A stretch of 62,866 nucleotides of DNA from Singulisphaera sp. GP187. GTDB taxonomy: Bacteria; Planctomycetota; Phycisphaerae; Phycisphaerales; SM1A02. Both the position numbers and the translations under genes were made by a program. The stretch is from contig CAMBMO010000012.1 in NCBI GenBank assembly GCA_945868805.1, positions 1-62,866 on the forward strand. The letters are read 5' to 3'. The notes beneath the pieces were generated by a model. That model did no database searches, was not told the origin of the DNA, and was given only the letters and a program-made list of their open reading frames with translations. This document shows, piece after piece, positions 16,506 to 45,561 of the stretch (positions within the stretch are counted from its first letter, which is position 1; each line of letters starts with the position of its first letter).

Positions 16506-17807
16506 TTGACAACGAGCTCGACCCGTCGTGAATTCATCCGAGATGCAGCACTCGCGGCGACAATTGTGGTCGCAGGTGGCAGATCGATGGCTGTGGCGAT
16601 GCCCTGCGCAGACCCGACACCTCGCAGGCGCTCCGCGAATGGTCGAATCAACATTGGCCTCATCGGGTTTGGCGTGCGGGGCCGAGAGCTGTGTGGAGGA
16701 TTCCTAGACGATCCGGATGTCGAGATCGTCTCTGTTGCTGACGTGAATGCGACTCGCGCCAATGAGGGAGTTCGACTCATCAATGATCGTCGCAAGTCAT
16801 CGACCTGTCGCCTCGCCAAAAGTTGGCGAGATGTTGTCGCCGACCCGTCGGTCGACGCCGTCCTCATCGCGACACCTGATCACTGGCATGCTGAACCTGC
16901 AATCGCGGCGTGCTTGTCGGGTCGACATGTGTACTGCGAGAAGCCGATGTCATTGACGATCGCGGAAGGTCGCGCGATGGCCGATGCCGCCCGCACCAGT
17001 GGAGTTCGATTTCAGACTGGTTCGCAGCAACGCTCCGAATTCTCGCACCACTTCACACGCGCAGCCGAAGCGGTACGCAATGAGCGAATCGGAAAGCTCA
17101 AGCGTGTCACAATTGGTGTTGGCGCACCTCCCATCGCGTGCGATTTACCCGAAGAACCATTGCCCGAGGGAATCAACTGGGATGGATGGGTCGGTCAAGC
17201 GCCCATGCGCGGATTCAATTCGACACTCTGTCCGATCGCGATGCATAATCACTACCCGGCGTGGCGCGCATACCGCGAGTACTGCAACGGATACCTCGCG
17301 GACATGGGAGCGCACCACTTCGACATCGCGCAGTGGGCGATGCGCATGGACGAGAGCGGTCCGCGCCGATTGCTTCCACCGGCCGATGGATCGCTGACAG
17401 GCCTGCGATTCTTCTATGAGAGCGGAGTCGAGCTCGTGCATGGTGGCCCGACGGATTGCACCTTTGAAGGAAGCGAAGGAGTCATCGAGTGTTCTCGCGG
17501 TCATATCAAGGCTCTGAAGGATGGCGTCGAGGCCCCGGATTTGCTCTTGCCCCCATCAGGGAACGAAGAGCGACTGCCACGCAATTCTTCGCACATTGCA
17601 GACTTTCTTGATGCCATTCGCAGCGGTCGCGATCCCATTTGCACCGCAGAGACCGGTCACCGTACGGCGAGCATCTGCCAACTTGCAGTCATCGGCTATC
17701 AAGTGGGCAAGCCCCTCGCGTGGGATCCGATCACCGAACGATTCACCGGCGAGAACTCCGCCCACGCAAACGCGCTCCTCGCCCGTCCGATTCGCAAGCA
17801 CGTGTAA
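16506..17807 (+). CDS. Tat-exported Gfo/Idh/MocA family oxidoreductase
   Basis: This 433-residue NAD(P)-dependent oxidoreductase probably acts on sugars or sugar derivatives in the periplasm. I take TTG 16506 as the start because it places a twin-arginine signal (S-T-R-R-E-F-I-R-D followed by AALAATIVVAGG) at the N-terminus; the frame is open further upstream through the repeat. The Rossmann fold begins INIGLIGFGVRGREL, followed by VSVADVN, LIATPDHWHAEPAIAA and the family motif YCEKPMSLTIAEGRAM. The C-terminal domain has DMGAHHFDIAQWAM, with the His pair expected in the active site. Such exported paralogues are abundant in planctomycetes. It converges with prfC. Confidence 0.88.
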   Translation: MTTSSTRREFIRDAALAATIVVAGGRSMAVAMPCADPTPRRRSANGRINIGLIGFGVRGRELCGGFLDDPDVEIVSVADVNATRANEGVRLINDRRKSSTCRLAKSWRDVVADPSVDAVLIATPDHWHAEPAIAACLSGRHVYCEKPMSLTIAEGRAMADAARTSGVRFQTGSQQRSEFSHHFTRAAEAVRNERIGKLKRVTIGVGAPPIACDLPEEPLPEGINWDGWVGQAPMRGFNSTLCPIAMHNHYPAWRAYREYCNGYLADMGAHHFDIAQWAMRMDESGPRRLLPPADGSLTGLRFFYESGVELVHGGPTDCTFEGSEGVIECSRGHIKALKDGVEAPDLLLPPSGNEERLPRNSSHIADFLDAIRSGRDPICTAETGHRTASICQLAVIGYQVGKPLAWDPITERFTGENSAHANALLARPIRKHV

Positions 17808-34002: not shown

Positions 34003-34146
34003 TGGCGTATCTCAATGTAGGTTCCAATTGTGAATAACTCGTTCAGATCCTGTGGCGTCCACAACCGAACGATCGTCGGCGCAACCCACAATCGCGCGAA
34101 AGTGCATGGGTGGAACTTAAGGTGGCAGGAGAGTTACACCTCTCCA

Positions 34147-34745
34147 ATGCAACAATCCACGAGTTTCGGCAACGATTCGGCCCCAAAGTGCCCATTGCTC
34201 ACAACCGCCAATGGCGCACCGATCGGCATTCAGCATGCCCTCACCGCTGGACCCCGTGGACCAGTTCTGATGCAGGATGTCGCCCTCTGGGAACAGATGC
34301 AACATTTCAATCGAGAACGAATCCCCAAGCGTGTCGTCCATGCGAAGAGATCCTGCGCGTTCGCAACATTCACCGTCACGGGCGACATCGCCGAGTGGAC
34401 ACGCGCAAAGATCTTCGAGAAGGTGGGAAAGAAAACCGAACTCTTTATGCGCTTCAGTACCGTCGCTGGCGAACGAGTCGCAGGCAGGTTCGTTCCGCTG
34501 GAATCCATTCGACCTCAAGGTGTTGCTGGCAAGGTTGATGTCGTATGCGGACACGCAATTGCATCGCATCGGAGTGAACAGCCATCAGATCCCTGTGAAC
34601 CGACCGCGTTGCCTAGTGATAACTACATCCGTGACGGCGCCCCCCGCCGATGCGACAAATTATGGATCTGCCCCGAACTACTGGCCGAACACGATCGCCT
34701 CTGCGCCGAAGCCTGATGCATCGTTGGCGGATCCCGCGTGGGAAA
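34147..34745 (+). pseudogene. haem catalase (KatA-type) gene, shattered
   Basis: The N-terminus is recognisable from ATG 34147: [47 protein letters not shown] with the distal His, then [11 protein letters not shown]. At about 34485 the similarity leaps to another frame and a later part of the protein: WNPFDLKV, then at once [19 protein letters not shown] with the haem-ligand Tyr, and [10 protein letters not shown]. Fragments then alternate between frames (NYIRDGAP, then [17 protein letters not shown]). From memory of catalase sequences, roughly 160 residues are missing before NPFDL and about 55 after it. Several deletions and frameshifts leave no functional product, although an uninterrupted frame of 228 codons (34030-34716) spans the front. 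Confidence 0.9.
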
Positions 34746-35014: not shown

Positions 35015-38000
35015 TCAAGTCAACTTCACGCGAAGCGAAACAATCTGGAATGGCGTCATTTCCAGCACGGTCTTGCCGTTCTTGACAGACATTGGGGGGT
35101 GTTGCCCGCCACGACCGAGTGCGCGCTCGAAGAAATCGCAGTGCGAGAGCCGTTTGACACGAGAGTCCCAGTTGAGCGCGCAGGTCTGTGGCGATCCAGT
35201 GCGATCGACGAGGCGGACAATGACATCTCCGCTTCCGTCATCGGCTGGCTTGAGCGCCGCGATCTCGGTTCCAACTACCCCGCTCACACTCTGAATCGAA
35301 AGGAACTGCCGACTCTGACCGCCACGACTCTCCTTCGACGCTGAAACCTCGGTAAGCGGATTGTTCAGACGATTCGCCGCACTCCAGTCAGCTGTGCCCC
35401 ACGCCTGACTGCATCGAATTCCATAAATGAATTCGTGCGCTCCTCGGTCGGCGGTCGGATCGGGAAAGTTTGGGCTCTTGATGAGCGTCAGCCCGAGTGT
35501 TCCATCATGTGCACTCTTGCCGAAGATGCCATCGTCGATCACGGCGAAAGTGCTCCCGCCGTCGCTCACGCTCATCCAGTCGTGACCAGGAACCTCGAAC
35601 TGCGCGCACTGCCAACTTGTGTTGCGATGGGAGTCGCGATCGATGTGCCCGAATTGCGTACCGAATCGCGCGGTACGCGTGCGAAGGCGTGTGGGAAAGA
35701 GCGCGCGGAGAAGCGTCCGCTCTTCCCGCCAGACAAGGCGCGTGTGGACGAGAACGACGTCACTCCATGGTCGGAGCTCGTATCTCTGACGAATCGTGCT
35801 CGCTGCGCCGAGTTTGCGCTCGATCGTCAAGCACGCACTCCCTGCGCGAATCGACGCCTTCGACTCGCACGCAGTGACGATCGGTGTCGGTTTCTCGAAA
35901 TACTCCTTGTCCGTATCCCACGCCTCCCATCGCCTAGGACGGTCTTCATATGTCACAAGTTCATTGAAGGCGCGCCCTCGATCCGGCTGGACTCGACCGT
36001 CGACCGTCATGATTTCCTTGATCCGCCCGAGCGAATCAAATCGAATCTTGAGAAGCGAATTGGAAATCTCTCTCGTCGATGCGCGCAGTGCTTCATCGGG
36101 CAGTGGCGAACTCACCGCCGCAATACTGCACGGCGGAGCGGTCTCCGCCGCGACGCTGGCAGGGTTAAAGACGACGCGGTCACTCGCTCCAGCGCGAACA
36201 AGCTTCGCAGCACGTGCCAGTCCATCTCCACGCAAGACCGAAAGCCGAGCGATCGCACTTCCCATCGCCACGCGCGCATCGTCATAGACCGCGCCGATGC
36301 TCGAACCTGGCAGAATGTCGTGGAACTGATGGAGCAAGACGACCTTCCAGATTGCGTCAAGCTCTGCCAGAAGTGCTCGTTCCATCTTGCGACTCGTCGG
36401 CGCGAGTACCGCAAGCATTTCGACCTCCCGCAACAACTTCTCCGCCGTTCGATTTGCCTGCTTGATCCATCGCTGCGTCGTATACGTCCCTCGGTGCGCC
36501 TCGAGATAGAGCTCGCCATCCCACACGGGCAACTCGACACCGCGCTGAACCGCGTCACGCGCTTCGTCGTGGAGTAGGCCACAGAAATCTCCAGCTCTCC
36601 CGTGATCCGTCGATGGCACGCCCTCGCATGAATGCGCGCTCCGCGTGCGTTCGATCTGCATTGGATCTGGACCACCACCGCCATCGCCCCATCCGTACGG
36701 CTGCAAATATGTACGCGTGCGCCCACGGTCCTGCCGTTGGACGTTCGTATATGCGAGTTGCAAATCTGCGGGCAAGAAGTCGCTGTTGTAATTGTGCCCG
36801 GGAGTGAGGTGCGTCAGGACTTCGGTTCCGTCAAGACCTCGCCAGTTGAAAGTGACATGCGGAAAGCGGTTCGTATCGCTCCAGATGATCTTGTTGGTAA
36901 TGAAAGTGTCGAGCCCCGCCTTTGCGATGATCTGCGGCAAGCATGCGGGGAAGCCGAATGTGTCGGGCAGGAAGAGGAATCGTTGTGGCGCGGACGATCC
37001 GAAGTTTTCGTTCCACCAACGCGTCCCGTGAACGATTTGGCGAATGAAGCTCTCGCCACTCGGCGCGGTGCAATCAGGCTCGATCCACATTGCACCATTG
37101 GGTTCCCAACGCCCAGACTTCACTGCTGAACGGATTCCCTCGAAGAGCTTTGGAGACTCCTCCTTTACATACTGATACTGTTGCGCCTGACTGCAGAGAA
37201 ATCGAAAGTGCGGGAATCGTTCGATGTTGCGGAGTGCGGTCGCGAAGGATCGCACGCACTTGCGACGAGTCTCGTCGATGCGCCAAAGCCACGCCGTGTC
37301 GATGTGCGCGTGCCCGATCGCGATGCATGTCGTCGCGAGTTGCGACCCTGAACGACCCTTAATCAGTCGGTCGAGCACGGCACGTTGCGCGAGAATGTCC
37401 TTGCCAGTCGCGGACCCTGCCGGTATCGCACGCACGATTGTGCGGAGGCCTTCATTGATGTCGTTGGTGCGACTGTCGTCTGCGCTCCCACCCCACAGCA
37501 TCCGTCTCAACCAATCGAATCTCTGGCAGAATTTCCAGACGTCCTCGTCGATGGCAACAATTTCTGCGCACTCAAGCCGACCGGGCTTGGCTTCGTTCCA
37601 GCGCGCGCGTTGCTCTGGTTGATCCCACCAAAATGTCGTCGCTCCGAGTGGAAGATTGCAAGCCGCCTCGATCCACAGATCGATCGTCTCGCCCCCTCGC
37701 GCACGTTGAGAACTTCGCCAGTCCGTGGGCAGGATCGGTGCGGTGTCGTGGTAAGGATCCAATCCAGCGTGAGGGACGCCGTCCACCCAGAGGCAGGCTT
37801 CAGTCCCGCTCGAAAATCGAAGCATCAGGCGGTGCCCACGAAAATCTTTGATCATTCTTCCGCGAATTCGAAACCACGCTGTGCTCCAAATCGGTCCCCA
37901 TCGGTAGCCAGTTTCGACCGGTTTGGTGCGGCCGCGGATCGCTTCGCCAAACGAAACTCGGACGGGAAAGTGCACCACCTCGACACTCACTGCTTGTTTT

Positions 38001-38062
38001 ATGGGCCACGCGAGTGGTTCGATGACCTGTTTGCAGAACTCCTCATAGCGAATCGCATCCAT
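35015..38062 (-). CDS. GH38 alpha-mannosidase
   Basis: A glycoside hydrolase family 38 alpha-mannosidase of about 1015 residues. The zinc motif GHAHIDTAWLW, the nucleophile region FLFLPDTFGFP (Asp at 38119-based residue 386), WNENFG, LPVWDGELYLEAHRGTYTTQ and LHQFHDILPGSSIGAVYDD are all present, followed by the long beta-sandwich C-terminal domains ending at LRVKLT. No signal peptide is visible, so it is probably cytoplasmic and trims imported mannosides. The start is uncertain: ATG 38062 is used here; a TTG at 38119 would place the first codon inside the inverted repeat 38106-38119. It is divergent from the Cys-rich small gene at 38145. Confidence 0.92.
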   Translation of the reverse strand: MDAIRYEEFCKQVIEPLAWPIKQAVSVEVVHFPVRVSFGEAIRGRTKPVETGYRWGPIWSTAWFRIRGRMIKDFRGHRLMLRFSSGTEACLWVDGVPHAGLDPYHDTAPILPTDWRSSQRARGGETIDLWIEAACNLPLGATTFWWDQPEQRARWNEAKPGRLECAEIVAIDEDVWKFCQRFDWLRRMLWGGSADDSRTNDINEGLRTIVRAIPAGSATGKDILAQRAVLDRLIKGRSGSQLATTCIAIGHAHIDTAWLWRIDETRRKCVRSFATALRNIERFPHFRFLCSQAQQYQYVKEESPKLFEGIRSAVKSGRWEPNGAMWIEPDCTAPSGESFIRQIVHGTRWWNENFGSSAPQRFLFLPDTFGFPACLPQIIAKAGLDTFITNKIIWSDTNRFPHVTFNWRGLDGTEVLTHLTPGHNYNSDFLPADLQLAYTNVQRQDRGRTRTYLQPYGWGDGGGGPDPMQIERTRSAHSCEGVPSTDHGRAGDFCGLLHDEARDAVQRGVELPVWDGELYLEAHRGTYTTQRWIKQANRTAEKLLREVEMLAVLAPTSRKMERALLAELDAIWKVVLLHQFHDILPGSSIGAVYDDARVAMGSAIARLSVLRGDGLARAAKLVRAGASDRVVFNPASVAAETAPPCSIAAVSSPLPDEALRASTREISNSLLKIRFDSLGRIKEIMTVDGRVQPDRGRAFNELVTYEDRPRRWEAWDTDKEYFEKPTPIVTACESKASIRAGSACLTIERKLGAASTIRQRYELRPWSDVVLVHTRLVWREERTLLRALFPTRLRTRTARFGTQFGHIDRDSHRNTSWQCAQFEVPGHDWMSVSDGGSTFAVIDDGIFGKSAHDGTLGLTLIKSPNFPDPTADRGAHEFIYGIRCSQAWGTADWSAANRLNNPLTEVSASKESRGGQSRQFLSIQSVSGVVGTEIAALKPADDGSGDVIVRLVDRTGSPQTCALNWDSRVKRLSHCDFFERALGRGGQHPPMSVKNGKTVLEMTPFQIVSLRVKLT

Positions 38063-38105
38063 TTGAAAATGAGGAAGCACGGCAGGAGTGTATGAGCGAC
38101 TCTGC

Positions 38106-38135
38106 TTGACAATCGTCAATTGGAAGGTCTATTGT
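38106..38135 (+). promoter_or_regulatory. sigma70-like promoter with overlapping inverted repeat
   Basis: TTGACA (38106-38111) and TATTGT (38130-38135) are separated by 18 bases, a good fit to a sigma70 promoter reading towards the exporter operon. The -35 box is part of a perfect inverted repeat, TTGAC-AATC-GTCAA (38106-38119), suited to a dimeric repressor or activator. The predicted transcript start would lie only a few bases before ATG 38145, so the first gene could be nearly leaderless. The elements are seen in the sequence; regulator identity is unknown. Confidence 0.55.
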
Positions 38136-38144
38136 GCTTTGAAG

Positions 38145-38576
38145 ATGATTCGACTTCAGCGCAATCTCATCATTGCTGTTATCGCGGTGTGGCTACCGCT
38201 GTGTTGTTGCCAGGTGATGGCATTTATTTCACCGAGTGATTTATGTTGTTCCGCAACATCAACCGCGTCTGACGCCAGCTGTTCGACAGAAAGTTGCTGC
38301 CGCAACGAGATGCCTGCAAACCAGGGTCACTCGAATACGACCTGTGACTGCTGCGTCGAGAAGGGACCCCCACCGACTGCTCCGTCGCTCGATTCGTTTT
38401 TCGTTGCAGTCGAGATTCCATTTTCAGTCGTGGCCTCGCCATGCTTTATTGATCCGTCCCAACTTCACGCGACCGAAGTCGCCGGGCGTTGGGATGTGCC
38501 GCCGCCGACCGATTTGCCTGCGCGACCGCGTGGAGCGATCGAGCGTTGCTCCATCTTCGAACTCTGGTTGATTTGA
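38145..38576 (+). CDS. small Cys-rich exported protein heading the ABC exporter operon
   Basis: The 143-residue product starts at ATG 38145, just after a strong promoter; a longer frame to 38088 would include the promoter. An N-terminal hydrophobic helix (LIIAVIAVWLPLCCCQVMAF) with three consecutive Cys is followed by a Cys cluster region (DLCCSAT, ASCSTESCCR, TCDCCVEKG) and then a Pro-rich tail. At least thirteen Cys in about 60 residues suggest metal binding or disulfide exchange outside the cytoplasm. I know no named family. It is separated from the TolC-type gene by a hairpin (38595-38617). The position suggests a sensor, metallochaperone or substrate of the exporter. Confidence 0.65.
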   Translation: MIRLQRNLIIAVIAVWLPLCCCQVMAFISPSDLCCSATSTASDASCSTESCCRNEMPANQGHSNTTCDCCVEKGPPPTAPSLDSFFVAVEIPFSVVASPCFIDPSQLHATEVAGRWDVPPPTDLPARPRGAIERCSIFELWLI

Positions 38577-38594
38577 ACTCCTGACACGCTTGAT

Positions 38595-38617
38595 CCGCGC
38601 GAATCGTTTTCGCGCGG
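38595..38617 (+). terminator. perfect 9-bp GC hairpin between Cys-rich gene and TolC-type gene
   Basis: CCGCGCGAA (38595-38603) and TTCGCGCGG (38609-38617) form a perfect 9-bp stem with loop TCGTT, 19 bases after the Cys-rich gene stop, followed by GTGGTTCTGTGTC. It resembles an intrinsic terminator with a poor T-tract, so partial termination or mRNA protection that makes the first gene more abundant is plausible. Confidence 0.6.
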
Positions 38618-38647
38618 TGGTTCTGTGTCAACTTTGGAGTTTTCTCA

Positions 38648-40042
38648 ATGCACAATTCAACTTGGTGGACGGTGCTCGCAACCACGCTTTCAACGCTCGC
38701 GCTTCCATCGTGCGTCACACCGCAGATGAAGCCACCCGCTTCAATTGGGGCGGATGTCGCACAAGCAACTGGAGTCACGCCGAATTGGTCCGATCCTGAC
38801 GCGGGAGTCACGATCGACGGAGCGTCACTCCGCTCCGCTTCGGCGACTCCTCTGCCAAACCCTCTTTCCGAACGCGTCGCAATCGGAATTGCCCTTGACG
38901 CGAGTCCCGAAATCGCGCGCATGCTCGCCGAGACAGATTCGCTGCAAGCCCAAGCAATGGAGGTTTCCACGCCGATGAACCCCGTCGTCAACTTCGCGTC
39001 TGGCGCTCCGCTCGACTCGATGAGTGTGGTGCCGATCTTCGCCATGCTGATGGTGCAGATCGACGAATTGTGGAAGCAACCAATTCGAAGCGAAGCAGCC
39101 CACGCGAACTACGAAGCCGCGCTTCTCTCGCTCGGGGCTGGCGCGGTTGCGCTGGCATCGGATGCTCGAGCGCTCTGGCACGAAGTGGCGGTGCGCGAGG
39201 AGGAGTGCGCGCTTGCGAAGCACGACCTAGCCCTGACCGAACGACTACGAACGATTGCGCAAGAGCGATTCGCCGTCGGCGAAGGAGATGGCGACTCAAT
39301 CGCCACCGCAAATCTCGAATTCGCAGATGCCCACCACCGTGTCGAGAGTGCAAACGAGATGCGCGACACGGCGCGTTTGGCGTTGATGACGATCCTCGGG
39401 CGCGCCGAGGCTCCGATCAACTGGAATGTGGGTGATGCGGACACAGCGAGCCAACACACCATTCACGGCGTTCTCTCGGACGAACCCGCCATGCTCGACC
39501 GCCTTGCACAATCGAGGCTCGATGTGCGCGCCGCGCAGTCGCGAGTGATCGCGGCAATGGCGAGCGTCACTCTCGCGCAGCGTGGACGGGTCGGTCGCCT
39601 TGAACTTGGTGCGGGCTGGGAGCGATCAATGGAGAACGACAGCGCTGTCGGCGTTGCTGCGAACATCGAGCTACCGATTTTCAACGACGGATCGTTTCGA
39701 ATCGCCAAAGCCATTGCCGACCTCCGCGCAGCAGAGATCGCCGCCGAGCGCGTGAGGCAAACTGCGATCGGCGAGCTGAGAACCGCTCTCGTCAAAGCCC
39801 GTTCCGTCGAAGGTCGTTACAAGATCAGCGAGTCTTCCTCGGTCAGTCCGATGACGGAAAGTGTCAAGCGCACCGCGGATGCACTCGCCGCAGGCGAAGC
39901 GGCCGAGCAGGACGCGATCATTGCGGAGCACGTGCTGAATCATGCGAAACTCGAACTGACGGATCTAGAACGTGCCCGACGGGGTGCGCGAATCGCACTC
40001 TCGAAAGCTGCGGGCTTCCTGCCCGTGGAGGAGATGCCATGA
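38648..40042 (+). CDS. TolC-family outer-membrane efflux lipoprotein
   Basis: The 464-residue protein has a lipoprotein signal (MHNSTWWTVLATTLSTLALP-S-C22) and the long alternating helices of TolC/CusC outer-membrane factors: AEVSTPMNPVVNF-like opening, IDELWKQPIRSEAAHANYEA, ARALWHEVAVREEECALAKH, ERLRTIAQERFAVGEGDGDS, the strand LELGAGWERSMENDSAVGVA, and a second repeat with AKAIADLRAAEIAAERVRQT. It forms the outer-membrane duct of a tripartite exporter. Its stop overlaps the adaptor start (ATGA), showing tight coupling. Confidence 0.88.
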   Translation: MHNSTWWTVLATTLSTLALPSCVTPQMKPPASIGADVAQATGVTPNWSDPDAGVTIDGASLRSASATPLPNPLSERVAIGIALDASPEIARMLAETDSLQAQAMEVSTPMNPVVNFASGAPLDSMSVVPIFAMLMVQIDELWKQPIRSEAAHANYEAALLSLGAGAVALASDARALWHEVAVREEECALAKHDLALTERLRTIAQERFAVGEGDGDSIATANLEFADAHHRVESANEMRDTARLALMTILGRAEAPINWNVGDADTASQHTIHGVLSDEPAMLDRLAQSRLDVRAAQSRVIAAMASVTLAQRGRVGRLELGAGWERSMENDSAVGVAANIELPIFNDGSFRIAKAIADLRAAEIAAERVRQTAIGELRTALVKARSVEGRYKISESSSVSPMTESVKRTADALAAGEAAEQDAIIAEHVLNHAKLELTDLERARRGARIALSKAAGFLPVEEMP

Positions 40043-40083
40043 CCAGCATGACCAGCATGACCAGCATGACCAGCATGACCAGC
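40039..40083. repeat. 9-bp tandem repeat at the adaptor start codon (five ATGACCAGC units)
   Basis: Five identical copies of ATGACCAGC encode MTSMTSMTSMTSMTS at the N-terminus of the HlyD-type adaptor. Every unit carries an in-frame ATG, so translation could begin at 40039, 40048, 40057, 40066 or 40075. The first ATG overlaps the stop codon of the TolC-type gene. A related array is at 16455-16484. Confidence 0.9.
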
Positions 40084-41367
40084 ATTCCAATTCCAAAGTC
40101 ACGCATTGCGACACGCATCATTTTGCCCCTCGCCATCGTCGGTGGCGCGCTCGCGATTCTCGCATGGTCGAGTTGGCGCGCATGGGCGCCACTCACTGTC
40201 GTGCATGCGGTCCCGGTCGTCGTTCGTCCAGTTGAATTGGCAGCGGGTGCACCGTCACCTTCCTCCGATTCGCCCGCAAAAGTGCGAGCGGTTGGACCGA
40301 TCGTGCAAGCACCGGGATGGATTGAGCCATCGCCATTTCCGATCAGTGTCGCGGCATTGACGGCGGGAGTGGTTCGTGAAGTCTTTGTTCTGGAGGGTGA
40401 TCATGTGACGAAGGATCAGGTTGTCGCCCAGCTCGTCAACGAAGAACAGTTGCTCGCGCTACGAAAAGCGTCTGCGGAGGTCGACATCAAAGCTTCCGAA
40501 CGGGATGGACTGCGCGATGAACTGACGCGCAAGTCGAAGTTGGTTGCGAGCGGCGGATTCAGCGAAGGCGAAGTCACACGACTCGGGCATCGTGTTCGAG
40601 GAGCGGAAGCAGCGTTCGAATTCGCGAGTGCTGTGCGCGACGAAGCCACACTCGCGCTCACCCGTACGGAAATTCGGTCGCCAATCGCGGGTGTCGTTAT
40701 GACACGGCTCGTGGCGCCTGGAACGTTGGTTGGGATGGACGCATCAACATCAACGATCTTGCAGCTCTTCGATCCAACTCAGCTGCAAGTGCGAACCGAT
40801 GTCCCGCTCTCTGATGCTGGAAGGCTCGTGATCGGACAGTCAGCGGTGATTCAGGTCGATGCACTCCCCGGAACGATCATCCGTGGACGCATCATTCGCG
40901 TCGTTCAACAAGCCGACATCGCCAAGAACACCTTGCAGGTCAAGGTGCTTCTTGAAAATCCTCCAGCGGGACTCGTTCCCGACATGCTCGCACGCGTGAA
41001 AATCGAGACAGGCGCAAAGAGCGTGGGCGCCGCATCCGCGGGCGCAAACGCCAACTCGGACCGCACCGAAGTCGCCGCACTCGAAACAGCGCTTCGTTCG
41101 ACTGTGCCGACGGCGGACGGTTCGCGCGCGGGCGAGGTACGAGTCGTCGTCGATGTGCGCGATGGCGTCGGCCGAATCGAAGTGCGCGAAGTGCTCTGTG
41201 CAGCAGGACCGGACCCCGATGGATGGACGGCCGTCTACCAGGGTCTGCGTCCCGGCGATCTCGTGGTGCTTGACGATTCTCCACCGACCAAAAATGGGCA
41301 AAGTGTGCGAATCAGCGAGCGCGCTGTCGGCATCACAAAGAGCGGAGGTCACGATGGGCACAACTGA
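40039..41367 (+). CDS. HlyD/MacA-type periplasmic adaptor of an ABC exporter
   Basis: The product has up to 442 residues; its start lies in a repeat of five possible ATGs. After the cytoplasmic tail comes one membrane anchor (IILPLAIVGGALAILAWSSW), then the typical adaptor: lipoyl half 1 (VQAPGWIEPSPFPISVAALT, VVREVFVLEGDHVTKDQVVA), a helical hairpin (ALRKASAEVDIKASERDGLR), lipoyl half 2 (LTRTEIRSPIAGVVMTRLVA) and a beta-barrel domain (QLQVRTDVPLSDAGRLVIGQ). It links the ABC permeases to the TolC-type duct. It overlaps the ATPase gene by 14 bases (41354-41367). Confidence 0.9.
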   Translation: MTSMTSMTSMTSMTSIPIPKSRIATRIILPLAIVGGALAILAWSSWRAWAPLTVVHAVPVVVRPVELAAGAPSPSSDSPAKVRAVGPIVQAPGWIEPSPFPISVAALTAGVVREVFVLEGDHVTKDQVVAQLVNEEQLLALRKASAEVDIKASERDGLRDELTRKSKLVASGGFSEGEVTRLGHRVRGAEAAFEFASAVRDEATLALTRTEIRSPIAGVVMTRLVAPGTLVGMDASTSTILQLFDPTQLQVRTDVPLSDAGRLVIGQSAVIQVDALPGTIIRGRIIRVVQQADIAKNTLQVKVLLENPPAGLVPDMLARVKIETGAKSVGAASAGANANSDRTEVAALETALRSTVPTADGSRAGEVRVVVDVRDGVGRIEVREVLCAAGPDPDGWTAVYQGLRPGDLVVLDDSPPTKNGQSVRISERAVGITKSGGHDGHN

Positions 41368-42064
41368 ACCGATCATCGTTTGCTCAGCCCTCGAGAAGCA
41401 CTATTCGCGTGGCGGAGAGACTGTCCGCGTGCTCGAGTCGATCGACCTGACGCTTAACCGCGGTGCGTTCATCGCGTTGATGGGTCCGTCAGGATCGGGA
41501 AAGACGACACTCCTGAATTTGTTCGCTGGCATCGATCGCCCCACGGCGGGATCGCTCATCGTCGACGGACACGACATCGCGATGCTCTCGCGCGCGGCGC
41601 TTGCCGAGTGGCGAGCGCGAAGCGTGGGCTACATCTTCCAGCTCTATCACCTCGTGCCTGTCCTGACCGCGTATGAAAATGTCGAGCTGCCGCTTTACTT
41701 GCATGCGTTGACTCGACGCGAGCGACATCAGCGAGTCTCCGAGGCACTCGACGCTGTCGGGATCGCGGATCGTCACGCGCACTACCCGCGCCAACTCTCA
41801 GGAGGACAGGAGCAACGGGTCGCGATCGCGCGCGCGATTGTCACACGGCCTGCGTTGTTGCTCGCCGACGAACCAACGGGAGACCTCGATCGGGTCGCCG
41901 CGGCGGGAATCATGGAATTGCTCTCGCGCTTGCACCGTGAACGCGGCGAGACCATCGTCATGGTCACGCATGATCCTGGGACGGCCGCGCACGCCGATGG
42001 GATCGTCCGGCTCGATAAGGGCCGGCTCGTTACGGACGCAAAGTTGTCAGGAACGCACTCATGA
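41354..42064 (+). CDS. MacB/LolD-type ABC transporter ATP-binding protein
   Basis: The 236-residue ATPase starts at ATG 41354, with GGAGG at 41344-41348 as ribosome binding site inside the adaptor gene. Motifs: Walker [19 protein letters not shown], the Q-loop in [20 protein letters not shown], signature [15 protein letters not shown], Walker [13 protein letters not shown] and the H-loop VMVTHD. The sequence is of the LolD/MacB/FtsE class that powers mechanotransmission-type transporters. It overlaps the first permease gene by 4 bases. Confidence 0.93.
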
Positions 42065-43215
42065 CACGGTCTCTGAACGGAATCTTCGTACTCGCGTGGC
42101 GCGGACTCTGGCGTCGGCCGACTCGAAGCGCGCTCGTCATCGCTGGAGTCGCGGTTGCCGTCTTCCTCTACTGCACCGTCGATGCCACTCGCACTGGCGT
42201 TGAACGTGCGACGAAGCGTGCGGCGCAGGAGACTGCGCTCGTCGTTTACCGCCAGAATCGTTTCTGCCCCTTCACCAGCCAGTTGCCACAGTACTACGAG
42301 AACGAGATCAAGAAGATCCCAGGCGTTCTGACCGTCACTCCCGTGAAGATTGTCGTCTCGAATTGCCGCGCATCGCTCGACGTCGTGACATTTCGTGGCG
42401 TGCCACCTGAATCCTTTGCGCACGATCAGGCGAGTCGAGTCGACCCGGACGTGATGAAGGTCTGGGCAAGTCGTGGCGACGCCGCGCTCATCGGCGCCGA
42501 ACTCGCAGAGCGTCGCAGACTGCGCGCTGGCGATCGCTTCACGGCTGCTGGCATCGATGCGTTTGTGGCAGGTGTTATCGAGAGCGATGCGCCGCAGGAC
42601 CAGAGCAGCGCGTTCGTGCACCTGCCCTTCCTTCAAGAGCAGGCGAAGCGAGGTGGAACTGGAACGGTTGTCACGCAGTTCGATGTGCGCGTGCGAGACT
42701 CAGCCCAGCTCGACACTGTTGCGCTCGCCATCGACGAGCGATTCGCACACGACCAAACTCCAACGACGACTCGCGCCGAGACGGCGCATGTCGCACGCGC
42801 CGCAACCGATGTCATCGCGCTCGTCGGTTTCGCTGAACTGCTCGGGTGGGCAGGGCTTGCCGCCATCTTCGCGCTTGTCGCGAATGCGATCGTGCTCTCG
42901 ATGCGAAGTCGCCAGCGCGAAGTGAGCATCTTGCAGACGCTCGGATTCCGGGGCGAACACCTCGCCGCGCTCGTCATTGCAGAGGCCGTCATCCTTGGTG
43001 GCGTTGGCGGCGCCATTGGTGCGGTGGCGTCGTATGCAATCGTCTCGCTCGCACGAACCGCACTCACGATGGAGGGAGTCTCGATCGCCATCGCCCCATC
43101 ACTTGTGATTGCGCTCGTCGGAGTCGCCTTCGCGATTGGGCTAAGTCTCTTGGCTGGAGTTGTTCCAGCGATCATCGCCTCTCGTCAATCCGTCGTGGCG
43201 GGATTCAGGTCATGA
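42061..43215 (+). CDS. FtsX/MacB-type ABC permease 1
   Basis: The 384-residue inner-membrane permease has one N-terminal helix ([20 protein letters not shown]), a periplasmic domain of about 230 residues (MacB core-like), then three C-terminal helices: [40 protein letters not shown] and [20 protein letters not shown]. The cytoplasmic coupling segment [20 protein letters not shown] is diagnostic for FtsX-type permeases. It overlaps both neighbours by ATGA and is paired with a second, different permease. Confidence 0.9.
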
Positions 43216-44408
43216 CTTTCCTTCCACTGCACTACGCCGCCCGCAACATCGGTCGAAGCCCGCTCCGCCTTCTGCTCACGGCTGGTGGCGGCGCGCTCGT
43301 TGTCTTCCTGGTCGTGAGCGCGATGGCGAGTGTGCGTGCGCTTGACCGCGGCGTTCGAGCGAGCGGTACGCCTGGCAATGTCATGATCGTCGGAGCTGGA
43401 AGCGAGGAGAGCGTGGAGCGGAGCGAGATTCCCGCGTCCGCGCCAGGCGTGCTCGCTGCGAGCATCCAGGGCATTCGTTCGCTCGGTGGCGGTCGATTCA
43501 TTTCTCCCGAGTTGCATGTGCCACTGCCACTTCGACGTGCCGATGATCCGCCACTCGTCGGAAACTCACGGGATCTCGCGCTCGTTCGAGGATTCGAGCC
43601 GAGCGCGTTTCTCGTACACCCTCAAGCGCGACTCGCCGTCGGAAATCTCCCCCGCGCCGGCCAGGACGAGATCATCGTCGGCCGTGCGCTCGCATCAAGG
43701 CTTCGCGTCGCCAACGCTGACATCGAAGGTGAAGCCGATCAACTTCCACTCGTCCTCATCGACGATCGACCACACCGTGTGACCGGCATCATCGATGCTC
43801 CCGGGGTCGCTATCGATGGCGAGGCGTGGATGCCGCTGACGGATTTGCTCGTGCTCACGAAGCGACAGACAATTTCGATGGCAGTCGTCTCGCTCGATGG
43901 TGCCGACCTCGGCGATATCGAAGCCTTCGCTGCACGGCGATCAGACTTGGAACTCGCGGTGATCGATGAGCCGGCCTATTACGTTCAGCTTGCGCAATTC
44001 TTTCGACCGGTCCAAATCTTGATTGGCGTGAGCGCTCTCGTCATCGCATTTGGGGCGATGCTCGGCGGACTCAACGCTCTGGACGCCGCATTCGCGTCGC
44101 GGTCGCGGGAGATCGCGATGCTTCAGGTCCTCGGATTTTCGCGCACCGCCGTCATCGCGAGCCTCGTGCAGGAGTCCATCCTGGCGGTTGCGACCGGCGC
44201 GCTCCCCGCGGTAGTCCTCGCGGGCTTCTTGCTTGACGACATCGGAGTTCGATTTTCGATGGGAGTCTTCTCACTCTCGGTCGATGCGGTCTGCGTCGCA
44301 AGCGGTCTGGGCGCTGGGCTACTCCTCGGTATTGTCGGAAGCCTTCCCCCCGCCCTCCGTTGCATGCGCGCCTCCATTCCTGGCGCGCTCAAGTCTGATC
44401 TCGTGTAA
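43212..44408 (+). CDS. FtsX/MacB-type ABC permease 2
   Basis: The 398-residue permease starts at ATG 43212, overlapping the previous stop. It has the same layout as its neighbour: LRLLLTAGGGALVVFLVVSA as first helix, a large periplasmic domain, the coupling segment ASRSREIAMLQVLGFSRTAV and three helices near the C-terminus (ILIGVSALVIAFGAMLGGLN, SILAVATGALPAVVLAGFLL, CVASGLGAGLLLGIVGSLPP). The two permeases presumably form a heterodimer with two copies of the ATPase. Confidence 0.9.
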   Translation: MTFLPLHYAARNIGRSPLRLLLTAGGGALVVFLVVSAMASVRALDRGVRASGTPGNVMIVGAGSEESVERSEIPASAPGVLAASIQGIRSLGGGRFISPELHVPLPLRRADDPPLVGNSRDLALVRGFEPSAFLVHPQARLAVGNLPRAGQDEIIVGRALASRLRVANADIEGEADQLPLVLIDDRPHRVTGIIDAPGVAIDGEAWMPLTDLLVLTKRQTISMAVVSLDGADLGDIEAFAARRSDLELAVIDEPAYYVQLAQFFRPVQILIGVSALVIAFGAMLGGLNALDAAFASRSREIAMLQVLGFSRTAVIASLVQESILAVATGALPAVVLAGFLLDDIGVRFSMGVFSLSVDAVCVASGLGAGLLLGIVGSLPPALRCMRASIPGALKSDLV

Positions 44409-44459
44409 TTCATCCACCTACTGTTTGATCACTCGCTACTCACCAAAGGAACCTCTTCC

Positions 44460-45065
44460 ATGTCACTCCGATCGATCATCAACATTCTTCCAATGATTTC
44501 GAATCTCGCCCTCGCCTGCACGCTCGCCTGCACGCTCGCATGCGCGGTCGGATGTGGAGATTCGTCCGCACCGAAAGCGGACTCCAAGGCATCGACTGTC
44601 GCCGACGCGACAGTTCCTGCTGGGACCTTCACCAACGAACAGCCAGCTGGAGCTATCGGAGTGATCGAGGCGCGCAAGTCGGCGAAACTTGGAGAACGGG
44701 TCGTGCTACTCGGGCGAATCGGCGGAACTCGCGCGCCATTCGTCAGCGATCTTGCGATCTTTTCGATCATTGACTCGTCACTGAAATCCTGCGTTGAGGG
44801 AGGCGACGACGATCATTGCCCTCGACCGTGGGATTATTGCTGCGAAGAAAAATCAGCTCGGTCCGCCGCCATGGCGTCGATCGAAATCGACGGCGCTGAC
44901 GGCAAGCCGCTCGCCATCGCACTCGAATCCGAAGGAACCCTAAAACCGCTGATGTTGGTCGCAGTTGAAGGGACGCTTCAATCGACCGATGGAGGATCGT
45001 TCGTCGTGCGAGCGCAACACATTTACAAGATTCCCAACGACCCGCTCGCGAAGCACATCAAGTGA
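44460..45065 (+). CDS. Cys-rich lipoprotein with OB-like domain, end of the exporter operon
   Basis: The 201-residue protein starts at ATG 44460, 51 bases after the second permease, with AAAGGAAC upstream. The signal contains a 12-bp repeat (LACTLACTLAC) and a probable lipobox A-V-G-C. The mature domain (about 60-195) looks like a small OB-type barrel (GERVVLLGRIGGTRAPFVSD, LKPLMLVAVEGTLQS) interrupted by a striking Cys/acidic loop, SCVEGGDDDHCPRPWDYCCE. I recall similar P-W-D-Y-C-C proteins in planctomycetes and relatives but no assigned function. The loop suggests metal or thiol chemistry, in line with the Cys-rich protein at the operon head. Confidence 0.75.
   Translation: MSLRSIINILPMISNLALACTLACTLACAVGCGDSSAPKADSKASTVADATVPAGTFTNEQPAGAIGVIEARKSAKLGERVVLLGRIGGTRAPFVSDLAIFSIIDSSLKSCVEGGDDDHCPRPWDYCCEEKSARSAAMASIEIDGADGKPLAIALESEGTLKPLMLVAVEGTLQSTDGGSFVVRAQHIYKIPNDPLAKHIK
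44511..44546. repeat. 12-bp tandem repeat in a lipoprotein signal peptide
   Basis: CTCGCCTGCACG occurs twice, followed by the variant CTCGCATGCGCG. The units encode Leu-Ala-Cys-Thr, Leu-Ala-Cys-Thr and Leu-Ala-Cys-Ala, so the signal peptide contains several alternative lipobox-like L-A-C sites before the A-V-G-C site. Confidence 0.85.
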
Positions 45066-45093
45066 CCTTCGCGACGAGCGGGAGCGAACCGCG

Positions 45094-45561
45094 TCACTTC
45101 ACGCCAATGTCGATCGTTGCTTGAGCGGGACCGCTTTCTGACGCACTCAACCCCATCGACATCGTTCCCGATGAGAATCCGAAGAGTTTGCGTTGCCCTG
45201 AAAGATCCTCGATGTTTGCCCAGCGTTGACCATCCGGACTGATCCGCAATCCAGCGTGGGAGATCAGGAGATAGGTGTCACTGGTGAAGACCAAAATGTT
45301 CTGCCCCGCACCAACCGTCGCCATCGGCAATTGAACAGTCAATACGAGCGGGAGCGACTCGCCCTTGCGAATCAGGAAGAGCGACTCGCCACCAGCGTCG
45401 ATCACGACCCCGGCCTCCTTCAACTGCTCCGGCGTTGCCTTCGTGGAGGCGATCTCGACCGCCTTCATCTTCGAGCTGTCAAAGTGCGTGATGGACTGGC
45501 AACCACTCGCCACAAGAACCACCGCTACGACATTCGCGATAGAGAAAGAAATCAGCTTCAT
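45094..45561 (-). CDS. lipoprotein of unknown function
   Basis: The 155-residue product starts MKLISFSIANVVAVVLVASG followed by Cys, a lipoprotein signal. The rest is strand-rich (ESLFLIRKGESLPLVLTVQL, NILVFTSDTYLLISHAGLRI, SPDGQRWANIEDLSGQRKLF) with a Ser/Gly-rich end; I recognise no family. Its ATG overlaps the stop of the acetyltransferase gene upstream (45558-45561), so the two are translationally coupled. It converges with the exporter operon 28 bases away. Confidence 0.65.
   Translation of the reverse strand: MKLISFSIANVVAVVLVASGCQSITHFDSSKMKAVEIASTKATPEQLKEAGVVIDAGGESLFLIRKGESLPLVLTVQLPMATVGAGQNILVFTSDTYLLISHAGLRISPDGQRWANIEDLSGQRKLFGFSSGTMSMGLSASESGPAQATIDIGVK

Follow-up and report, generated by a model that had tools for sequence, protein, structure and literature searches.

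The window analysed here comprises 62,866 nucleotides (nt) of contig CAMBMO010000012.1 from the planctomycete genome of Singulisphaera sp. GP187 (2.5 Mb, 95.8 % complete). On the plus strand, seven genes between positions 38145 and 45065 encode a tripartite ATP-binding cassette (ABC) exporter and two cysteine-rich proteins, in the order Cys1, TolC, adaptor, ATPase, PermA, PermB and Cys2. Cys1 (P0001, 38145-38576) has 143 amino acids (aa) with 13 cysteines by count and a CxxC motif. It is followed by a TolC/OEP-type outer membrane channel (38648-40042; OEP, PF02321, E 2.3e-24) with a lipobox-like LPSC recognized by eye, a periplasmic adaptor of the membrane fusion protein type (40039-41367; RND_mfp, TIGR01730, 124.4 bits at a cut-off of 94.9) with a C-terminal GHDGHN tail, an ABC ATPase of the MacB/LolD group (41354-42064; PF00005, E 2.7e-36) and two FtsX/MacB permeases, PermA (42061-43215) and PermB (43212-44408), each with FtsX PF02687 and MacB_PCD PF12704 above cut-off. 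Cys2 (P0007, 44460-45065) is a lipoprotein with a predicted oligonucleotide/oligosaccharide-binding (OB) fold; it carries CVEGGDDDHCPRPWDYCC, with C111, C120, C127 and C128 arranged as C(8)CxxPWDYCC. The middle five genes were matched by Pfam and NCBIfam. From TolC through PermB, each gene shares 4 to 14 bases with the next; neither Cys-rich gene overlaps its neighbour, the gaps being 71 nt between Cys1 and tolC and 51 nt between PermB and Cys2.

An initial annotation, made from the sequence alone, had described this exporter with its overlapping codons, the Cys-rich protein of 143 residues ahead of it, the Cys-rich lipoprotein behind it, an own promoter and an inverted repeat, and all of these were recovered. 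The promoter-like site TTGACA-18 nt-TATTGT lies on the plus strand at 38106-38135, the first hexamer starting at 38106; one such site occurs in the sequence versus 0.3 expected in shuffles. Both hexamers are nearly unchanged in 12 aligned sequences, the window and 11 close relatives, while the flanks diverge. Since the ATG begins 9 nt past TATTGT, Cys1 may be translated from a nearly leaderless message. The Cys1-tolC gap (38575-38642) constitutes the strongest inverted repeat.

The curated cut-offs place the predicted pump among the Type VII (MacB-like) ABC systems and not with MacB, LolCDE or DevBCA (named as in the abstract of PMC12654888). PF02687 and PF12704 were present in both permeases and PF00005 in the ATPase. 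The fused ATPase-permease of MacB (NF007826, cut-off 966) was not found: the genes are separate, with 210.5 bits for the ATPase and 21 bits for PermA. For LolCDE, the ATPase obtained 219.4 bits with LolD (cut-off 307.75) and the permeases 34.6 and 20.7 bits with lolCE (cut-off 362.45). For DevBCA, the scores were 42.2 versus 129 (TIGR02971) and 204 versus 295.8 (TIGR02982). The system shares with MacAB-TolC the MacB_PCD/FtsX permease domains, a MacB-like ATPase, the adaptor and the TolC channel, but differs in the separate ATPase, two distinct permeases, a cysteine pair in PermA, the Cys2 lipoprotein and the Cys-rich leader. MacB is thought to collect its load from the periplasm, and MacB-type pumps are discussed as machines for drugs, peptides or virulence factors; in a review of them (PMC5985334), 'zinc' and 'copper' are absent and 'heavy metal' appears in the references only. 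In PermA, all 54 aligned sequences (reading frames of 330-460 aa only) had the two periplasmic-domain cysteines C69 and C102, each within a motif of its own; in the outlying PermA of genomes G282, G262, G288 and G272 the first Cys motif was not seen. The adaptor ends with H[DN]xH in the window and in the 10 close relatives listed.

Cys2 is almost certainly a component of the pump, because PermB directly precedes it among the exporter genes in 78 of 80 loci. These loci are the best 80 of 488 relatives and were found with an alignment of an earlier set, 18 of them repeating that set; the two remaining loci, L136 and L193, start at contig ends. In the earlier set, 57 of the 60 fetched stretches hold Cys2, and PermB was the nearest exporter gene 5' of it in 55 (exceptions L106 and L116). 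The usual gene order is adaptor-ATPase-PermA-PermB-Cys2; in seven loci (L103, L108, L113, L120, L122, L183, L196) PermB-Cys2 stands ahead of adaptor-ATPase-PermA. Homologues of the Cys-rich genes lying mostly away from such exporters, an outcome that the initial annotation had named as refuting its proposal, were not observed. Homologues of Cys1 stand before TolC in close relatives, and other Cys-rich open reading frames (ORFs) head part of the distant operons. Among 392 genomes of the phylum, PermA (orthologue threshold 155 bits, next match 142) and Cys2 occurred together in 107, PermA alone in seven, Cys2 alone in seven and neither in 271 (P 5e-78, relatedness uncorrected). In three of the PermA-only genomes (G035, G282, G262) the exporter runs to the contig end, G288 has a weak Cys2 match, and in G225 and G272 none was seen within what their contigs contain. 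The Cys2-only genomes G052 and G377 are marginal matches (E 7e-4 and 8e-4).

Relatives of Cys2 were detected in 114 of the 392 phylum genomes and in 14 of the 19 genomes of the genus, and a wider contig scan confirmed 488 relatives among 537 pattern matches. The record titles of the best 80 of these name planctomycetes in 74 cases, an 'uncultured bacterium' in four, and a 'bacterium' and a 'Pseudomonadales bacterium' in one each; Cys2 was absent from the 72,556 plasmid records searched. An alignment of 49 sequences revealed C120, P123, D125, C127 and C128 as invariant, and C32 of the lipobox, C111 and W124 as retained in at least 90 %. Cys2 has no Pfam or NCBIfam family match, and the commonest Pfam hint across the 49 members was the OB-fold tRNA_anti-codon model (7 members, best E 0.0016). 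The structure predicted from this alignment (mean predicted local distance difference test score 85.5) has an OB-fold from about residue 60 onward, with the Cys cluster between strands 100-105 and 138-142. OB-fold structures matched the model with Z about 9 in the top rows, 94-100 of 201 residues aligned and root-mean-square deviations of 2.9-3.7; OB being a common superfold, these matches are uninformative on function. Searched by sequence against the PDB, the Cys2 profile reached a best E of 0.23. Tandem double Cys2 domains were encountered in three genomes (G270:C6:40173-41120, G325:C74:696-1646, G337:C1:32156-33004; called ORFs of 324-330 aa).

DUF3299 was considered as a family for Cys2 and rejected: strand order and the CC pair are alike by eye, but the hhalign comparison with 21 planctomycete DUF3299 sequences gave a probability of 1 % and E 0.055. 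The DUF3299 profile matched PA4066 (4hsp) with E 8e-15, and PA4066 was not among the best 50 structure matches listed for the Cys2 model. The lack of a Pfam match of Cys2 includes PF11736, and the sole PF11736 match of genome G000 is on contig C1, away from Cys2. In one locus (L212, G132:C212) a DUF3299 gene adjoins the Cys2 gene in opposite orientation. Eight of 30 planctomycete DUF3299 loci (L205, L206, L211, L216, L217, L221, L224, L233) have a PermA-like permease match within about 1.5 kb on each side, perhaps a sister system.

Heavy-metal pumps are more frequent in the surroundings of Cys2 than expected. A CzcA-type resistance-nodulation-cell division (RND) pump (TIGR00914) was located within 10 kb of Cys2 in 8 of 80 genomes versus 1.54 expected (P 2e-4; G024, G025, G165, G270, G325, G359, G361, G387), and a P1B ATPase (TIGR01525) in 5 of 80 versus 1.21 expected (P 0.008; G025, G105, G270, G325, G361). 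These counts stand without other ABC exporters as a comparison class; the expectation derives from all counted matches, the observation from the matches listed, with near matches read by eye, and G270 and G325, which share a similar context, are not independent. NCBIfam matches confirmed such neighbours in individual loci: a CzcA above cut-off inside the operon (L066), a ZntA-like P1B ATPase immediately 5' of Cys1 (L093), CopA-like and RicR-like genes (L122), a P1B ATPase behind Cys2 (L104), a CDF gene (L123), and an AztC/ZnuA-like protein with a PerR/Fur-type gene downstream (L082). At L116, Cys2 comes after TolC, CzcB-like and CzcA-type genes, and its distance to the CzcA match is 0.7 kb; about 12 kb from this Cys2 lies an ABC pump like that of the window (L272). 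Between the RicR-like and CopA-like genes of L122 a protein of 107 aa with 17 cysteines is encoded (16563-16883, minus strand), which has no NCBIfam match at 1e-10 and presumably resembles the four-helix copper storage proteins. At L157:447-851, 5' of a Cys-rich leader, we take the sequence to encode an ArsR-like protein, with the start of an arsenate-reductase-like gene after it.

The initial annotation had taken the two Cys-rich proteins as signs of a metal or thiol system. The metal part of this claim is favoured: the heavy-metal pump neighbours, the invariant cysteines in PermA and Cys2 and the H[DN]xH tail of the adaptor make a metal the probable substrate, and the residues in the three proteins are those that a path for soft metals would need. 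Cys2 holds as a true partner of the exporter; taking Cys1 for a functional partner as well is probably mistaken in view of the leader architecture described below. The nearest functional likeness is found in the zinc operons PA4063-PA4066 and ZrgABCDE. PA4064 shares 35.5 % identity with the ATPase domain of MacB, and PA4066 has an OB-like fold. Common to these operons and the one in the window are a MacB-like ATPase, a permease, an OB-fold-like periplasmic protein and a metal-binding periplasmic protein, here a putative one (PMC8561739, PMC9817125). They differ in serving Zur-controlled uptake, in having DUF3299 instead of Cys2 and in being His-rich rather than Cys-rich, and no TolC or adaptor is named for them. 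By this analogy, the pump might act in metal acquisition during starvation, exporting a chelator or loading envelope proteins with metal, and the AztC/ZnuA-like binding protein with the Fur-family gene at L082 would suit such a role. We consider this unlikely, though the best placed of the alternatives: the operon in the window includes TolC and adaptor, the enriched neighbours are efflux pumps, and a kinship of Cys2 with DUF3299 is unsupported. CusCBA and CzcCBA share with the exporter the TolC-type channel and adaptor, the position of a Cys-rich leader (PMC9973294) and the genomic neighbours, but operate with an RND permease where the operon here has an ATPase with MacB-type permeases.

The N-terminus of Cys1 is hydrophobic, resembles an export signal by eye and ends with LPLCCCQ. 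Neither Pfam nor NCBIfam had a match. A whole-genome search identified Cys1 in 12 of the 19 genomes of the genus, always before TolC, and a local search added three divergent copies (G394, G400, G402). Across the 12 close sequences, LPLCCCQ, the CxxC (present in 12 of 12 aligned Cys1, by eye) and a hydrophobic C-terminus (FSIWII, LSLWLI and others) are kept, and the middle varies freely. Reading of the 60 stretches showed a small Cys-rich ORF as the first gene of the operon in 28, genus copies included, with some loci ending at contig ends. Ten distant leaders (L076, L081, L084, L086, L093, L138, L150, L159, L186, L203) have CCC after the signal, four (L085, L097, L117, L174) do not. The C-terminal ends of the distant leaders vary by group: LLRPPRG, LLRPPRS, LRPPIA, IIIQR or ILQV.

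The gap of 71 nt between Cys1 and tolC folds as a single hairpin. The Cys1 stop codon (38574-38576) forms the beginning of its outer arm, UGAACUCC, whose pairing partner is GGAGUU(CA), the Shine-Dalgarno sequence of tolC (GGAG, 38636-38639). With a structure taken from the fold of L066, one of the 12 close sequences, 92 % of the cells of the 24 pairs were paired and nine pairs had changed on both sides; the covariation was 0.278 compared with 0.141 (standard deviation 0.016) in shuffled alignments, reached in 0 of 500 shuffles, and slid versions gave at most 0.071. Seven of the nine pairs of the inner stem had changes on both sides; the outer helix is hardly variable and so by itself contributes little to the covariation evidence. 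A covariance model (R1) located a single site at the Cys1-tolC junction in each of the 12 genomes (of 19) in which the whole-genome search had identified Cys1, and one weak match on the opposite strand of one of them; its matches are its training sequences, and L076 and L078 of the same genus are too divergent for it. For the region 37900-45300, Rfam gave no match at E 1 or below.

Beyond the genus, the gaps are unlike in sequence, and the pairing of stop codon and Shine-Dalgarno sequence recurs. In 15 of 19 junctions, at least three of the four Shine-Dalgarno bases are paired with sequence close to the stop codon of the leader; among the gap-matched controls this holds for 11 of 154 (P 1.5e-11). 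Looser controls with gaps of 25-150 nt (47 of 288) raised the control rate from 7 % to 16 %. Counting nine leaders without a recognisable Shine-Dalgarno sequence as failures, 15 of 28 junctions remain (P 4e-8 with gap-matched and 3e-5 with looser controls). The set of 19 was selected at a threshold of seven cysteines and is without L077 (a near copy of L076), the clade L064-L075 with L079, the ArsR-like ORF of L157, L076 and L078; L087 stands outside all junction sets. As controls served the first Shine-Dalgarno-plus-start after the end of a plus-strand gene, some of which are not true gene starts. A version with 22 junctions that includes the L157 ORF, L076 and L078 (Cys threshold 7 for one part of the leaders, the first set, and 6 for the second) yielded 15 of 22, controls 12 of 159; of the first runs, one that also covered close relatives had yielded 16 of 21 versus 29 of 153 and another 7 of 10 versus 29 of 167.

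This layout has a described counterpart in CutF of Rhodobacter capsulatus (cutFOG). CutF is exported while translated; copper on its Cys motif delays the export via the C-terminus, and the delay lets a stem-loop over the cutO Shine-Dalgarno sequence unfold. CutF-like proteins often head metal operons, with OEP (TolC-type) genes as the commonest next neighbour (PMC9973294). Cys1 resembles CutF as a short, putatively exported Cys-motif protein at the operon head, followed by a short gap whose stem-loop pairs with the Shine-Dalgarno sequence of the next gene. It differs in that an ABC pump follows instead of a multicopper oxidase or an RND pump, in the stop codon inside the stem, and in the lack of a DUF2946 match and of a PP close to the C-terminus. 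The DUF2946 model (PF11162) did not match Cys1 at E 10; with seven other leaders it gave one match below cut-off (L095, E 0.46). A PP is present in the last 15 residues of the leaders of L087, L090, L095 and L097. The main text of PMC9973294 contains neither 'Planctomycet' nor 'ABC transporter'. A second counterpart is CruR of Bordetella pertussis (DUF2946), an upstream ORF at the operon head that senses copper via CxxC; it has RAPP near its end, acts by Rho termination over a gap of 162 nt and in a sense opposite to CutF, and a few CruR/DUF2946 homologues are reported for Planctomycetes (PMC9426467). Both CruR and Cys1 are Cys-motif ORFs at the operon head, but Cys1 has the Shine-Dalgarno hairpin in its 71 nt gap; the RPP-containing ends of some distant leaders may be set beside the RAPP of CruR. 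Upstream ORFs of the LPPP arrest type have been described in Phycisphaerales (PMC10987492), and RAPP/RGPP upstream ORFs precede copper-related genes in several lineages (PMC12992588); the end of Cys1 carries neither of these motifs. A literature search by titles and openings of abstracts, covering few subscription papers, returned no description of the planctomycete operon or of PWDYCC proteins.

Since its layout is that of a regulatory nascent leader with a Shine-Dalgarno hairpin, Cys1 is probably a regulatory switch rather than a structural part of the pump. Another function for it would be that of a precursor: the pump could export a small Cys-rich peptide or a thiol natural product, with Cys1 as cargo and not as sensor. 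Export of small disulfide-bonded peptides is common among MacB relatives (PMC5985334), and Cys1 is small, Cys-rich and has an export-like signal. This explanation appears improbable, as a cargo gene needs no stop codon inside a hairpin that sequesters the Shine-Dalgarno sequence, many pumps are without the leader, and in the 12 close sequences Cys1 varies freely in its middle beside the conserved LPLCCCQ, CxxC and hydrophobic end. Furthermore, no peptidase domain was among the 25 ATPase Pfam matches listed.

A thiol-based periplasmic metal exporter under translational control is, on balance, the explanation that best accommodates the genes and their conservation as a whole. In the proposed mechanism, the tripartite pump would clear a soft metal ion or a metal-thiol complex from the periplasm. 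Cys2 would capture the metal via its four conserved cysteines and hand it over to the cysteine pair Cys69/Cys102 in PermA; the periplasmic domains of PermA and PermB would be driven by ATP hydrolysis, and the load would exit via adaptor and TolC. Cys1 would act as the control element, exported co-translationally, with metal on its Cys motif delaying export or termination at the C-terminus. A ribosome on the last Cys1 codons would hold the stop-codon arm single-stranded and free the tolC Shine-Dalgarno sequence, so that translation of the pump would track the metal load. We propose control in the sense of CutF by analogy; the reverse sense fits the sequence equally.

Several observations weigh against this explanation. 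The linkage of PermA and Cys2 is broken in two genomes, G380 with the exporter and a true absence of Cys2, and G040 with PermA and Cys2 on separate contigs. The invariant cysteine pairs could be structural disulfides. Among the matches listed, 72 of the 80 Cys2 genomes have no CzcA-type pump and 75 of the 80 no P1B ATPase within 10 kb, and the neighbours suggest differing metals, with copper at L122 and the AztC/ZnuA-like importer plus PerR/Fur-type gene at L082. As the leader was seen in only 28 of 60 loci, the pump can work without it. The last 15 residues of Cys1, whose C-terminus is AIERCSIFELWLI, are without the PP by which CutF-like leaders are defined, and the hairpin fits plain translational coupling without sensing as well. 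A function in envelope maintenance, that is, traffic of lipoproteins, lipids or disulfides with structural cysteines and with metal neighbours from a general clustering of efflux genes, would agree with LolD as top named ATPase family, the weak lolCE matches of both permeases, the broad distribution of Cys2 and neighbour counts that lack a comparison with other ABC exporters, but it is the least probable alternative given that the curated LolD and lolCE cut-offs were not reached, that Cys2 at L116 follows TolC, CzcB-like and CzcA-type genes, and that many operons are headed by a leader type known from metal operons.

The metal exporter under translational control may extend beyond the window, a generalization that we offer tentatively and hold with less confidence than the reading of the single operon: ATP-driven heavy-metal exporters might occur phylum-wide, each with a MacB-type, Cys-pair permease that is loaded by an OB-fold lipoprotein with four cysteines, many of them switched by a nascent, exported metal sensor whose stop codon is half of an anti-Shine-Dalgarno switch, a CutF-type control outside the DUF2946 model. 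If this is true, ABC pumps would take on a role that belongs to RND pumps, a large group of genes without annotation would receive a name, and nascent-chain metal sensing would reach beyond the DUF2946 model with a compact switch. The invariant cysteines are direct handles for mutation.

Further features were observed in and beside the operon. The adaptor gene starts with a tandem repeat, MTSMTSMTSMTSMTS (40038-40085), of 5.3 copies of a 9 bp unit that keeps the frame; it appears to be local, as the listed close relatives have different adaptor starts. On the minus strand a large ORF (35015-38119), which we take to resemble an alpha-mannosidase, diverges from the operon and nearly abuts its promoter. 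The ORF at 34030-34716, possibly a decayed gene, presumably resembles a catalase but ends after the N-terminal part.

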